Shown here: positions 27,799 through 33,248 of the stretch, piece by piece
Layout of the letters: each line of letters begins with the position of its first letter
Position numbering within the stretch: the stretch's first letter is position 1
Assembly: GCA_020723325.1 (NCBI GenBank)
Contig: DYJD01000001.1
Coordinates: 124,001 to 188,000, forward strand
DNA length: 64,000 nt
Source of the DNA: Desulfosudis oleivorans
GTDB lineage: Bacteria > Desulfobacterota > Desulfobacteria > Desulfobacterales > SURF-7
Direction of reading: 5' to 3'
Translations under genes and position numbers: made by a program
The notes under the pieces: model-generated
Told to the model about the DNA's origin: nothing
Database searches by the model: none
What the model saw: the letters and a program-made list of their open reading frames with translations, nothing else

Positions 27799-30276
27799 AT
27801 GCGCAAGCGTTCATCTGTAAGCATTCCGGAAACACCTGATATCTCGCCGGCTGCGCTGAAATTGAAAGAAGAAATCAGCCGGCATATCCAAACCACCCTG
27901 GGCAATGATCCGTATATGCCCAATCGCTACAGTTGTTTCACCGGTCTGGCCTTCAGTGTGCGGGACCGTTTGATCGAACGCTGGATCAAGACCCAGCGCG
28001 CCTGTTACGACAGTCTGGCCAAACGGGTCTACTATCTTTCCCTGGAATTCCTGCCGGGACGTTTTTTAAAGAATTATCTCACCAGTCTGGGCATGGAGGC
28101 TGAAGCGGAAGAAACCGTGAAAGCCATGGGCTTTGAGCTGGATGATATCGAGGAGGAAGAATGGGACGCGGGCTTGGGCAACGGCGGCCTGGGACGCTTG
28201 GCCTCCTGCTACATGGATTCCATGGCACGCCTGCGTCTGCCGGGTTATGGCTACGGCATCCGTTACGACTTCGGGATTTTTCACCAGGTTTTTGTCAATG
28301 GCTATCAGCAGGAACAGTGCGATAACTGGATGCGCCGGGGCAACCCCTTCGAGATCAAGCGCCGGGAGCATTTGTATGCAGTGCGTTTTTACGGCCGGAC
28401 GGAGATTTATACCGATGTGGAGGGCCGTGAGCGTCACCGCTGGGTGGATACCGAAGCGGTTATGGCCATGCCCTGTGATATTCTGATTCCAGGTTACGGC
28501 GACGATTTTGTCACCAACATGCGGCTTTGGACAGCCAAATCCAGCCGGGAATTCAACCTGGATTTCTTCAACCAGGGCAATTATATCGGCGCGGTTGAAA
28601 ACAAAGTCCTGAGCGAGACCATCTCCAAGGTCTTGTATCCCAGCGATGAAAAGGAACAGGGCCGAACCCTGCGACTGCGCCAGCAATACTTTTTTGTTTC
28701 CGCCACCATGCAGGATATTTTCCGCCGCTTCAAGAAACAACAGCAGGAATTCGAATGTTTTCCTGATTTTGTGGCCATTCAGCTCAACGACACCCATCCG
28801 GCCATTGCCATTCCTGAATGCATGCGCCTTTTGCTGGACGAGGAAGGTCTGGAATGGGATAAAGCCTGGGAGATTTGCACCAAAACTTTTGCCTACACCA
28901 ACCATACCGTCATGCCCGAGGCCCTGGAATCCTGGCCAGTGTCCCTGATCGGCCAGTTGTTGCCGCGAAATTTGGAAATCATCTATGAAATCAACCACCG
29001 TTTTCTAGAAGAGGTCAAAGAAAAGTTTCCGGATCAGCCGGAACTTTTGTCACAACTCTCCATCATTGCCGAGGGTGATGTGAAAAAGGTGCGCATGGCT
29101 TATCTTGCCATTGTCGGCAGCCATAAAGTGAACGGGGTGGCCGAGCTGCACAGCCGGATTTTAAAGGAGGGGATGTTCAGCGGCTTTGACAAGGCTTTTC
29201 CCGGTAAAATGAAAAACATCACCAACGGCGTCACTCCCCGGCGCTGGCTGTATCAGGCCAATCCGGGACTTTCCAGACTGATCACCGCCACCATCGGTCC
29301 GGAATGGATCACGGACTTGGAGCACTTGAAGAAATTGATACCGTTTGCCGCTGATCCCCAATTCCGTTCTGCCTGGATGGAGGTCAAGAAGGAAAATAAA
29401 AAACGTCTGACCCGTTATATCCTGCGCAAAATCGGCATGGGCGTTAATCCGGATACGCTTTTCGATGTGCATGTCAAACGGATTCATGAATATAAAAGGC
29501 AGTTGCTGAATGCGTTACATGTGGTCACACTTTACTGCCGGATTATCGAGAACAAGGGTCAAGAATGGATACCCCGCACCATCATTTTTGCCGGCAAGGC
29601 GGCCCCGGCTTATCATATGGCCAAACTGATCATCAAGCTGATTACTTCCGTGGCCGAAAAAGTGAACAATGATCCGGATGTGCGCGGGCGCCTGAAAGTG
29701 GTCTTTCTGCCCAATTACTGCATATCTCAGGCGGAGAAAATCATTCCGGCCGCGGAATTGTCCGAACAGATTTCGACTGCCGGCATGGAAGCTTCCGGCA
29801 CCGGCAACATGAAGTTCGCCCTGAACGGGGCTTTGACCATCGGTACCATGGACGGGGCTAATATCGAGATCATGGAGGAGGTGGGGCTGGAAAATATTTT
29901 TATTTTCGGCTTGCGCTCCGAACAGGTTGCCGGTCTGCGGACCAGCGGCTATCAGCCCCGGGAGATCATCCGCCAGGATCCGGAATTGAAAAAGATTCTG
30001 GAAATGATTCACAACGGCTATTTTTCACCCGGGGAACCGCGACTGTTCAGTCCCATCATTCAAACTTTAACCGACCATGGGGATTATTACATGGTGCTGG
30101 CAGACTATCGCGCCTATATCGATGCCCAGGAGCAAGTTTCCAGGGCCTATCGCAATCCGGACGATTGGACCCGCCGTTCCATCCTGAATACCGCCAATAT
30201 GGGCAAATTTTCCAGTGATCGGGCCGTGATGGAATATGCCCGGGATATCTGGAAAATGAAGTCGTTGCCTGAATAA
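27799..30276 (+). CDS. glgP: Glycogen/alpha-glucan phosphorylase
   Basis: GT35 phosphorylase of 825 aa that degrades glycogen to glucose 1-phosphate. It has the N-terminal segment YYLSLEFLPGRFLKN, the glucose-site loop GLGNGGLGRLASCYMDS and the pyridoxal phosphate site EASGTGNMKFALNGALTI with its lysine. Length matches the E. coli/rabbit type. CGGAGGAC precedes ATG 27799. It is followed 24 nt later by the HDOD gene and lies near the ParA-CBM48 gene, which points to a glycogen theme. The 236 bp upstream hold no gene that I can support. Confidence 0.96.
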   Translation: MRKRSSVSIPETPDISPAALKLKEEISRHIQTTLGNDPYMPNRYSCFTGLAFSVRDRLIERWIKTQRACYDSLAKRVYYLSLEFLPGRFLKNYLTSLGMEAEAEETVKAMGFELDDIEEEEWDAGLGNGGLGRLASCYMDSMARLRLPGYGYGIRYDFGIFHQVFVNGYQQEQCDNWMRRGNPFEIKRREHLYAVRFYGRTEIYTDVEGRERHRWVDTEAVMAMPCDILIPGYGDDFVTNMRLWTAKSSREFNLDFFNQGNYIGAVENKVLSETISKVLYPSDEKEQGRTLRLRQQYFFVSATMQDIFRRFKKQQQEFECFPDFVAIQLNDTHPAIAIPECMRLLLDEEGLEWDKAWEICTKTFAYTNHTVMPEALESWPVSLIGQLLPRNLEIIYEINHRFLEEVKEKFPDQPELLSQLSIIAEGDVKKVRMAYLAIVGSHKVNGVAELHSRILKEGMFSGFDKAFPGKMKNITNGVTPRRWLYQANPGLSRLITATIGPEWITDLEHLKKLIPFAADPQFRSAWMEVKKENKKRLTRYILRKIGMGVNPDTLFDVHVKRIHEYKRQLLNALHVVTLYCRIIENKGQEWIPRTIIFAGKAAPAYHMAKLIIKLITSVAEKVNNDPDVRGRLKVVFLPNYCISQAEKIIPAAELSEQISTAGMEASGTGNMKFALNGALTIGTMDGANIEIMEEVGLENIFIFGLRSEQVAGLRTSGYQPREIIRQDPELKKILEMIHNGYFSPGEPRLFSPIIQTLTDHGDYYMVLADYRAYIDAQEQVSRAYRNPDDWTRRSILNTANMGKFSSDRAVMEYARDIWKMKSLPE

Positions 30277-30300: not shown

Positions 30301-31551
30301 ATGACCTCAGAAAAAGAAAATCCGTCCATATCCCTTGCGCGGCAACCGGTTTTTGATGCTGATCAAACATTATGGGGATATGAATTGTTGGCGGTGAGCA
30401 ATTCCGGGCCCTTTGCGGCAAGGGATTTTGATGCGGATACGGTGGCCGGGACCTTGGCCTCCAGTACCTATATGGGATTACAGCAGATGCTGGAGCGCGG
30501 ACGAAAAATTATCGTGCGTTTTTCCGAAGAGATGATCATGGGAAAACTGCCCTATGCCCTTCCACCCAAACGTACCGCAGTGAAAATCAAGGGTGGCTCC
30601 CAAATCCGGCCGGAATTTGAGAAAGCCTTGGTACAGTTGAAAGAAGACGGCTATTTGATCCTATTGGCGGATACGGATGCAACCACTGCTGAAGCCCTGT
30701 TCCAATTGGCGGATATCCTGGATGTGAGCGTGGCGGATCTTGCTCGAGTGGATCTCACCGCAATCCAGGCCAAGGTAGGGGCGCACGAATGTCGATTTTT
30801 GGCGGATCAGGTCCATGATCAGGACTTGATGACAGCTTGCAAGGACAAAGGTTTCAGCTTGTTTCAAGGCGCTTTTTTCAAGCAGCCGGAAAAAATCAGC
30901 GTGAAGCAAATCCCTTCCAATGAGGCTTCTCGTTTTCAATTGATGCGTTTGATTGAAAATGAAGACCCGGATTTAGACCAATTGACCGATGTGATCAGCA
31001 CCGACGTTTCCATCACTTTCCGCTTGTTTTCCTACATCAATTCGGCCGCCTTTGGTTTTCGTCAGAAAATCCAATCCATCCGGGATGCTGTGAATATGCT
31101 AGGTTGGAAAAAAATCCGCAATTGGATCCGGGTGGTGATCCTGAATGATATGGCCAAGAATCAGAAAGGATCTGAATTGGTGGTTCTTTCAGCCCAGCGG
31201 GGGAAACTGCTGGAGCAGATCGCCATTGACCACGATTATTGGGGTTTCAATCCGGAGAGTCTGTTCCTGCTCGGCATGTTTTCCCTGTTGGAGGCCATGA
31301 TCAACTGCAGTATGGTGGATATTGTGCAATATCTCCCTTTGGATGACAAGCTCAAAGCGGCTTTGTGCGGCGACAGCAACAATGAATATCTACCGTTGTT
31401 GCATCTAGTGGAATACATCGAGGATGGGCAATGGGGGGAAGCCAAAAACGCCATCCAGAAATTGGGGCTTGATGGCGACAAAGTCTGGGCCGCCTATTAT
31501 AAATCGCTAATGTGGGGAAATGAAATCAACGAGTTGAGCAAAGACCGTTAG
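30301..31551 (+). CDS. EAL-like/HDOD domain signalling protein (YuxH/CdgJ type)
   Basis: A 416-aa cytoplasmic protein. Residues 10-200 form a degenerate EAL domain (SLARQPVFDADQTLWGYELL) lacking the EAL catalytic triplet, so c-di-GMP hydrolysis is unlikely. Residues about 205-400 form an HDOD domain (LTDVISTDVSITFRLFSYIN, AVNMLGWKKIRNW). Such proteins act as signalling scaffolds. AAGGAG precedes ATG 30301. It is co-oriented with glgP and convergent with the small ParA-partner gene, sharing a 3-nt stop overlap. Confidence 0.88.
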   Translation: MTSEKENPSISLARQPVFDADQTLWGYELLAVSNSGPFAARDFDADTVAGTLASSTYMGLQQMLERGRKIIVRFSEEMIMGKLPYALPPKRTAVKIKGGSQIRPEFEKALVQLKEDGYLILLADTDATTAEALFQLADILDVSVADLARVDLTAIQAKVGAHECRFLADQVHDQDLMTACKDKGFSLFQGAFFKQPEKISVKQIPSNEASRFQLMRLIENEDPDLDQLTDVISTDVSITFRLFSYINSAAFGFRQKIQSIRDAVNMLGWKKIRNWIRVVILNDMAKNQKGSELVVLSAQRGKLLEQIAIDHDYWGFNPESLFLLGMFSLLEAMINCSMVDIVQYLPLDDKLKAALCGDSNNEYLPLLHLVEYIEDGQWGEAKNAIQKLGLDGDKVWAAYYKSLMWGNEINELSKDR

Positions 31552-31991
31552 AATTCCATTATCGGTGGAGGTTCTTCCAGATAGATGCAGATTTTTTCTT
31601 CAGTTACTTTGTTTTTGCCGGGCCTGGAATTCTTGTTGTTCCTGACCAGCTCAATGCGCTTGATGCTGTAGTCAGCCTCCAGGTGCCGGCAGAGCATTTT
31701 AATGATTTTTTTCTGGGTATCTGGCGCCGGCGGATAAGCAATATTTTTCTCGATCATGATTTTTTCCTCTACTTCACACAGGTCGGTCAGCCAATCCGTA
31801 TTACTATCTTCCCCGGCATCCAAAGGATCGGTTTCTGCTTCCGGGCCGGAAGGGGCCGTGGATTGGACGCCGGCTTCCATTTCGGACGGATCGGTCCTTG
31901 TTTTTTCTAAAGGACAGCGAGTTTCCTTCTCGGTGGATAAAAAAATATCGGAGATATGTTCCAGCCCCCTGCCAAGACGTTTATTTTCCAT
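31548..31991 (-). CDS. Small ParB-N-terminus-like partner of the ParA-CBM48 ATPase
   Basis: A 147-aa protein without a known domain. Its first residues, MENKRLGRGLEHISDIF, closely resemble the ParA-stimulating N-terminal peptide of ParB (KRLGRGL followed by a hydrophobic pair). Residues 18-65 are acidic, Ser/Pro-rich and likely disordered. The C-terminal half (DTQKKIIKMLCRHLEAD, KICIYLEEPPPIMEF) may be a small folded domain. No ParB helix-turn-helix or CTPase box is present. ATG 31991 follows AAGGA; a TTG at 32030 is possible. It lies 84 nt downstream of the ParA-CBM48 gene on the same strand. I infer that it is the cargo adaptor or activator of that ATPase. Confidence 0.7.
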   Translation of the reverse strand: MENKRLGRGLEHISDIFLSTEKETRCPLEKTRTDPSEMEAGVQSTAPSGPEAETDPLDAGEDSNTDWLTDLCEVEEKIMIEKNIAYPPAPDTQKKIIKMLCRHLEADYSIKRIELVRNNKNSRPGKNKVTEEKICIYLEEPPPIMEF

Positions 31992-32075: not shown

Positions 32076-33140
32076 TCAGCGTATTTCAATGATGGAATTT
32101 TTTTCTCCAAAGGCATTTACCACAGAATTGGGGTTGTCTTCGTCCGTGACCCAGATGCCGTCTACCAGAAAACGATATTGATGGCTGCCCTGGGTCAGGT
32201 GAATGCTTTTGGTCCAGAAGCCGTCATCCCCGCGATCCATGACCGCCACATCAGAGGGATTCCAATTGTTGAAGGTCCCGACGATCTTGACGGTGGCCGC
32301 ATGGGGTGCATGGAAGCGGAATTGCTTTTTGCGCTTCAGCATATCGGCCAGATAAACCGAGTCGGACAAGATGCTTTTTTCCTCTGCCAGGAGTTCTTGG
32401 GCAAGGGCCATGTAGTCGTTGTACCCCTGGGAGTCTTTGGCGTACTGGACAATGGATTTTCCAAAACCGGCAGCTTCCCGTAGTTTGACATTGGATTGAA
32501 TGGTGGCGGTATACAACCCCTTCTGGAAATGGGTCTTGAGATTTTCAAGGACCTCCCGGGAAATCCGCGTGCGCCGGTCCACCATGGTGGCCACGACCTT
32601 GAGCAGGGGGGTATGGCCGGTCTTTTCCGTCACCAGGTTGATGATTTTCATCAATTTGCTGGTACCGTGCAGGGAAAAAAGACTCATCTCGATGGGAATG
32701 ATGACTTCCGTGGCAGCCATCAGGGCGTTGAAGGTCAGCAGACCCAGGCTGGGGGGGCAATCCATGACCACATAATCATAGCCCGGCAACATGACGGCGA
32801 CAGCTTCCCGTAAACGGGTTTCCCGGCCCGGGACCATGGCCATTTCCTGCTCAAATGTACTCAAGGAAGTGTTGGAGGGCGCGAGATAAAAATTGGTCGC
32901 TATGTTGACGGCAACATCCTCCAAATGGGCTTTGTGCTTATCCCCGACACCCAAGGCATCATAGACAGTAAGGGCAAGCGCATCCGGATCAATATTCAAA
33001 CCCAGGGCCGTATGGGCCTGGGGATCCATGTCGATGAGCAGCACTTTCCGCCCTTTTTGAGCCAGGCAGGCTGATAAATTGATGGCTGTGGTTGTTTTGC
33101 CGCATCCGCCTTTTTGGTTTGCAATCGCTATGATCCGCAT
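32076..33140 (-). CDS. ParA-family ATPase fused to a C-terminal glycogen-binding (CBM48/AMPK1_CBM) domain
   Basis: A 354-aa protein from ATG 33140, which follows AGGGGA and gives the canonical ParA opening MRIIAIANQKGGCGKTT; a GTG at 33170 would add 10 residues. The ParA part has the deviant Walker A KGGCGKTT, Walker A' DMDPQAHTALG and Walker B DYVVMDCPPSLG, and no DNA-binding HTH. Residues about 275-354 are a CBM48/AMPK glycogen-binding domain: VKIVGTFNNWNP, GFWTKSIHL, HQYRFLVDGIW, DNPNSVVNAFG. The tryptophans and the loop bind alpha-glucan in this family. The fusion suggests a nucleoid-gradient ATPase whose cargo is glycogen. Glycogen phosphorylase lies 2 kb away. Confidence 0.9.
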   Translation of the reverse strand: MRIIAIANQKGGCGKTTTAINLSACLAQKGRKVLLIDMDPQAHTALGLNIDPDALALTVYDALGVGDKHKAHLEDVAVNIATNFYLAPSNTSLSTFEQEMAMVPGRETRLREAVAVMLPGYDYVVMDCPPSLGLLTFNALMAATEVIIPIEMSLFSLHGTSKLMKIINLVTEKTGHTPLLKVVATMVDRRTRISREVLENLKTHFQKGLYTATIQSNVKLREAAGFGKSIVQYAKDSQGYNDYMALAQELLAEEKSILSDSVYLADMLKRKKQFRFHAPHAATVKIVGTFNNWNPSDVAVMDRGDDGFWTKSIHLTQGSHQYRFLVDGIWVTDEDNPNSVVNAFGEKNSIIEIR

Positions 33141-33248
33141 GCCGGTCCCCTGTTGCGTCATGTCCATCACGGCCTAGTATTGAAATTTTTATATAGTATG
33201 GCAGATATTGTACGTCAAGAAAAAAAACATACAACATATGGGACTGCA

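Follow-up and report, generated by a model that had tools for sequence, protein, structure and literature searches.

Within the 64,000-nucleotide stretch of Desulfosudis oleivorans DNA that we analysed (the window), positions 32076..33140 of the minus strand encode a protein of 354 aa in which a ParA-type ATPase is joined to a CBM48 domain. The initial annotation had read such a fusion from the letters, and it is real: the motifs quoted there are present, and the two parts match the Pfam families AAA_31 and AMPK1_CBM. The open reading frame extends without interruption from a GTG at 33170 to a stop codon whose last base is 32076 (364 aa), and this GTG start is also possible; the ATG at 33140 is the likelier one, because relatives share an ATG at the equivalent place. 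According to Pfam, AAA_31 covers residues 11-184 of the 364-aa ORF (E 1.9e-53) and AMPK1_CBM (PF16561) its residues 290-364 (E 1.9e-12, 47.6 bits against a cut-off of 26.8), while CBM_48 matches at E 4.8e-8. In the 354-aa protein the ParA/Soj-type deviant Walker A ATPase domain takes residues 1-260 (32361..33140, minus strand), a flexible linker residues 258-267 (32340..32369, minus strand), and a predicted AMPK-beta/CBM48 alpha-glucan-binding domain residues 270-354 (32079..32333, minus strand).

The CBM segment, used as the sole query, finds AMPK beta structures, AMPK beta1 among them (E 2.4e-8); since this lone segment does so, and since other genomes carry the fusion too, a chance match is excluded by the sequence comparison. 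In the alignment W293, R323, W330 and N348 of the fusion fall on W, K, W and N of AMPK beta1, residues that we take to be the glucan contacts; two other AMPK positions are substituted, the window protein having F in place of L and E in place of T. On contig 47 of the same genome (L008) a CBM48-like domain also occurs by itself, in a frame of 138 aa.

A structural model of the fusion, which the initial annotation had called for, has a ParA/Soj fold with a mean pLDDT of 86.9, and its sole stretch below 50 is the linker (residues 258-267). All top ten Foldseek matches of the model are Soj/ParA (TM to target 0.84-0.93), the best being a Soj model (TM to target 0.93, 42% identity). The initial annotation had also stated that the protein carries no DNA-binding domain. 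This stands in so far as no separate helix-turn-helix domain occurs among the Pfam matches of the 364-aa ORF, but the residues by which Soj holds DNA are present. Their sites were numbered on a Soj sequence that we assume to be right: in the alignment of 48 full-length fusions the R189 equivalent is R in 47/48, and at the site of R218 42/48 have K or R. These two are, in the excerpted text of PMC3778016, the Soj residues for non-specific DNA binding. The ParA signature lysine and the Walker A, A' and B motifs are each kept in all 48 aligned fusions.

Loss of the glucan-contact tryptophans in relatives had been named as an observation that would speak against glycogen; the W293 and W330 sites are W in 48/48 fusions, including the proteins of genomes G583 and G580, which will be discussed below. 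The R323 site is K or R in 48/48, and the N348 site is N in 42 and D in 6 of the 48. Only 6 of the 84 columns of the CBM part are invariant, and W293 and W330 are two of these; a domain retained for packing alone could be expected to vary at one or the other contact tryptophan. The sequence evidence taken together supports an ATPase that would be able to dimerise, to bind DNA and to hold alpha-glucan, and glycogen binding by the CBM48 of the fusion appears likely.

A sporadic, isolated occurrence of the fusion would equally have counted against its having a function of this kind. The fusion recurs: we analysed 48 full-length copies, the window's included, which represent seven named phyla besides that of the window, and this number is a lower bound, since a threshold of E 1e-70 was used for the phylum and order samples and the named-genome scan gave at least 21. 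Full-length fusions are present in 4 of 11 other genomes of the same family, in at least 12 genomes besides its own in the phylum sample (395 genomes), and in at least 11 besides its own in the order sample (194 genomes), one of the latter being already in the own-family count. Another family of the same phylum has the fusion in 15 of 24 genomes (12 of the 16 with a completeness of 90% or more and a contamination of 5% or less), and carriers seen only in that 24-genome survey were left out of the 48. The scan of named genomes added its at least 21 fusions from Auribacterota, Omnitrophota, Myxococcota, Planctomycetota, Rokuibacteriota, Pseudomonadota and Gemmatimonadota, 4 of the 21 belonging to bacteria without a phylum placement. 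With regard to a phage origin, a search of viral contigs with the fusion protein as a single query found no close relative; with regard to a defence role, PADLOC gave three weak matches, all within the ATPase part (best E 1.5e-6).

The ancestry of the fusion was approached by a tree of ParA domains, in which 48 fused sequences were compared with 16 from CBM-less sisters and 28 from generic ParA. On this tree the fused label requires 4 changes vs a mean of 30.8 after shuffling, and 0 of 500 shuffles is as low. The fused proteins make up one side of a branch in 0 of 200 bootstrap trees, in part because CBM-less sisters lie among them, and the deep forks are weak; the well-supported branches are compatible with a single origin of the fusion. 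Fifteen of the 16 CBM-less sisters form one strongly supported clade. These sister ParA proteins (L025-L036, L047-L049), about 340 aa where they were read through, commonly have a tail like SSYSEMVEAIA.

The gene adjacent to the fusion, and in relatives a third gene, had been overlooked in the initial annotation; we call their products P2 and P3. P2 of the window, a probable partner of 147 aa (31548..31991, minus strand), lies 84 bp downstream of the fusion, and both its position and its N-terminal motif recur in relatives. Its N-terminus reads MENKRLGRGLEHISDIFLS and contains the basic-hydrophobic motif LGRGLxxIS..FLS; the peptide KRLGRGLEHISDIFLS (31935..31982, minus strand) is a proposed ATPase-activating peptide, a role suggested by analogy with the N-termini of McdB and ParB. 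The remaining body of the window P2 is short, differs from that of the relatives' P2 and matches no Pfam family. At 36 of 47 fused loci the following gene starts with the motif or a variant of it (a literal GRG in 19 of the 36), the 36 being a count that includes six loci accepted by eye or from an earlier alignment (L056, L066, L131 and L132, which the pattern did not report, and L053 and L065, which have a loose form) and that rests on a pattern tuned by hand, without a chance control, a similar pattern having also matched two unrelated ORFs. One further weak case is L059, and P2 is missing downstream in 10 of the 47. In McdB and ParB a basic N-terminal peptide acts on the ATPase, according to the excerpted text of PMC12204374, and by the same analogy P2 may be the activator of the ParA-CBM48 ATPase.

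In many relatives the body of P2 looks like FlhG/FleN. A profile of 23 P2 proteins (22 from fused loci and one from the CBM-less locus L063) matches FlhG (PDB 4rz2) at E 8.4e-27, and only 4 of the 23 match a ParA-like Pfam family when taken singly; an iterated P2 profile drifted into ParA itself and is only a hint, and it is from the 23-protein profile that the fold is taken. Unlike FlhG/FleN, most P2 proteins have no Walker A and carry the extra N-terminal peptide: by eye, the P-loop is lost in most of the aligned sequences, with traces in L057 and L060. Three CBM-less sister ParA loci (L063, L157, L164) carry a partner of the same kind, in L157 and L164 as an LGRGL-kind gene downstream, and therefore P2 is not tied to the glycogen domain.

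P3, of about 190 aa, is encoded at 21 of 47 fused loci and, of the CBM-less ones, at two; a search of 15 genomes gave a figure of 3/15 and did not find it in the genome of the window. Its profile matched none of the PDB sequences, and Pfam gave no consistent family. The model of P3 (pLDDT 84) resembles PD-(D/E)XK proteins, for instance EndoMS (Foldseek E 9.7e-4, TM 0.44 by query), while the top match (E 4.5e-4) is a function-unassigned protein and the first four matches have TM 0.33-0.44 by query; we tentatively assign to it, from the model, a PD-(D/E)XK nuclease fold. P3 is probably not an active nuclease, because by eye the catalytic E-x-K is not retained in its alignment. At two loci (L062:11061-11786 and L149:4384-5163) the N-terminal peptide of P2 is fused to the P3 domain, which ties the P2 and P3 genes together.

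Among the closest known systems is the Soj/ParA of ParABS, with which the fusion shares the ATPase fold and motifs, the DNA-binding arginines and a partner with a basic N-terminal peptide encoded by the next gene, and from which it differs by the additional C-terminal CBM48 and by partners in which, over 23 P2 proteins, no ParB domain was found. The McdA/McdB system also combines a ParA-type ATPase with a variable partner whose N-terminal basic helix binds the ATPase (PMC12204374, as excerpted); unlike in the fusion, it is McdB and not McdA that sits on the cargo, and the cargo is a protein organelle. By profile score McdA is farther from the fusion than Soj, and no carboxysome or microcompartment gene occurs among the best 25 of 99 and the best 25 of 103 neighbour families (107 and 109 neighbours). 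The glycogen-binding domain of AMPK beta belongs to the same family as the CBM of the fusion, with the W, K/R, W and N positions aligned, and differs in sitting in a kinase complex instead of being joined to a ParA ATPase. Among the matches listed in our literature search, in which most subscription journals and bioRxiv were outside the scope, a ParA system for glycogen or with CBM48 is not described, and in the accessible main text of a paper on multiple ParA/MinD cargos (PMC10241942) the word glycogen occurs 0 times.

From the sequences discussed above we suggest, with a little more confidence than doubt, that the fusion belongs to a ParA/MinD-type system for the spatial organisation of intracellular alpha-glucan (glycogen), in which the ATPase itself would grip the glycogen; positioning or segregation of glycogen granules would be its output. 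The ATP-bound ParA dimer would attach to the nucleoid via its conserved basic residues, while two C-terminal CBM48 domains on flexible linkers would hold glycogen. The basic N-terminal LGRGLxxIS..FLS peptide of P2 would insert at the dimer and trigger ATP hydrolysis, as with ParB and McdB, upon which the glycogen-ParA complex would leave the DNA and rebind elsewhere. By repeated cycles glycogen particles would be spread over the nucleoid and shared out at division, with the ATPase rather than the partner bearing the cargo receptor, unlike in the systems compared. A broader proposal, to which we lend slightly less than half of our belief, is that of an ancient and widespread class of glycogen-partition ParA, whose ATPase-borne receptor would become bivalent on dimerisation while the dimer holds the nucleoid, and whose partner, in many lineages a former FlhG-type ATPase now dead and equipped with a ParB-like tail, would reset it. 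The inheritance of bacterial glycogen is usually regarded as left to diffusion. If our suggestion is true, bacteria would actively position and inherit glycogen as a cargo, a ParA design with the cargo receptor on the ATPase would exist, and the AMPK glycogen-binding fold would be linked to bacterial cell organisation in seven named phyla and the window's own.

Evidence for the cargo may be sought in the gene neighbourhoods. In the window a glycogen phosphorylase gene (27799..30276, plus strand; Pfam Phosphorylase, 1099 bits) is separated from P2 by an HDOD gene (30301-31551), which is convergent with P2 and overlaps the P2 end by 4 bp. At L135 one co-directional run leads from a debranching enzyme through a glycosyltransferase, GH57 and a glycogen synthase-phosphorylase fusion to ParA-CBM48, P2 and P3; at L130 ParA-CBM48, P2, a 128-aa gene, debranching enzyme, a free CBM48 and phosphorylase lie on one strand (a PilZ identity for the 128-aa gene was dropped, as Pfam gave no match). 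Further loci have GH77, GH57 and phosphorylase (L064), GlgB and a GH13 gene (L142) or GH57 (L052, L054) near the fusion, or a GH57 branching enzyme about 8 kb from it (L057).

In the stretches examined, alpha-glucan genes are found near 8 of 47 fused loci, L138 and L140 having been removed from an initial 10, as there the match was the ParA-CBM48 itself. The CBM-less loci give 0 of 11 and the generic ParA loci 1 of 58. Against 1 of 69 control ParA loci the one-sided Fisher p is 0.003, with the reservation that loci of the same lineage are not independent and that several alpha-glucan profiles were seeded from fused loci, which is a bias in their favour; when each locus's own seeds are omitted, and L066 (fused) and L092 (control) are removed as generic glycosyltransferases, 5 of 47 vs 1 of 69 remain (p 0.04). 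These counts cover 47 fusions; the 48th, L011, lies on a contig of 3.8 kb and was omitted, and several other short contigs may hide neighbours. From 324 neighbour ORFs, 7 longer than 1300 aa were set aside (two of them scanned afterwards), and spurious-looking ones and P2 were left out, so that 266 were retained and 216 scanned. The claim of the initial annotation that the cargo is glycogen is thereby supported in part: some fusions lie within alpha-glucan gene clusters, but in 39 of 47 fused loci no such gene was found in the stretch examined, and a Myxococcota pair described below also speaks against it.

That the majority of fused loci do not adjoin glycogen genes would suit a different role, which we consider unlikely and yet worth keeping in mind: a glycogen-sensing regulator, whose CBM48 would report the amount of glycogen or of free chain ends in an AMPK-like manner, with ParA, P2 and P3 passing the signal to division, chromosome segregation or glycogen enzymes while the granules stay unmoved. 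AMPK beta senses glycogen rather than moving it, and by sequence it is the AMPK beta subunit that is the closest structural relative of the CBM domain; moreover, many P2 proteins match FlhG/FleN by profile, and the PDB labels FleN an antiactivator. Against such a regulator stands the retention of DNA-binding residues, and of a partner peptide, that resemble those found where ParA systems position a cargo; no target effector was recognised beside the genes in the best 25 of 99 and of 103 neighbour families.

Glycogen could also be a store for the ATPase, the CBM parking ParA in order to tune its free amount while P2 or P3 binds another cargo. It would fit with the excerpted account in PMC12204374, where in the positioning systems compared the partner rather than the ATPase connects to the cargo, with P2 bodies and P3 that differ between lineages, and with the existence of the CBM-less sister clade and of the three loci where such a ParA has the same kind of partner. 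We regard this as improbable, as no other obvious cargo family appears in the best 25 of 99 and of 103 neighbour families.

The genome-wide distribution of glycogen enzymes bears on the question whether the domain has a glucan ligand at all. A GT5 synthase is present in 45 of 48 fusion genomes (the own genome and 12/12 at E 1e-20; 32/35 at E 1e-10, 29 of these reaching 1e-20); the base rate in the phylum sample, 321 of 395 at E 1e-20, is already high, and therefore this co-occurrence carries little weight. A phosphorylase is present in 40 of the 48. In the genome search G583 (L056) gave no GT5, phosphorylase or GH13 match, and G580 (L053) gave a partial GT5 match and no phosphorylase or GH13 match, and both keep the fusion; G589 has neither GT5 nor phosphorylase, but three GH13 matches. 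The assemblies of G583, G589 and G580 may be incomplete drafts. The fusions of G580 and G583, which belong to Myxococcota, are sisters on the ParA tree, and this pair is genuine evidence that a glycogen role is not obligatory. At both loci (L053/L056) ParA-CBM48, the partner and the third gene are retained.

With genomes of so little or no alpha-glucan metabolism in mind, one might see in CBM48 a protein-docking or structural domain without a glucan ligand and in the links to glycogen genes a coincidence. We give little credence to it: both contact tryptophans are invariant in the very proteins of G583 and G580, as in all 48, and the operon linkage to glycogen genes is found in several lineages. 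That the protein is a ParA for ordinary partition of chromosome or plasmid, and its added domain decorative, might be suggested by the Soj/ParA nature of the nearest structures, but is very improbable, as no ParB domain occurs among the 8 families matched by the 23 P2 proteins, on which ground plain ParABS partition was rejected, and the genome has another Soj-type gene, L002, placed among generic ParA on the tree.

In four Omnitrophota loci (L051:9423-10001, L052:9309-9890, L054:9414-9989, L055:9256-9996) a gene upstream of ParA-CBM48 encodes an N-terminal motif like IYEHLAxxYL or EELAKTYFS, followed, as judged by eye, by a membrane helix and a further domain. None of the four products matches Pfam (0/4), and this upstream gene perhaps encodes a membrane-bound partner.
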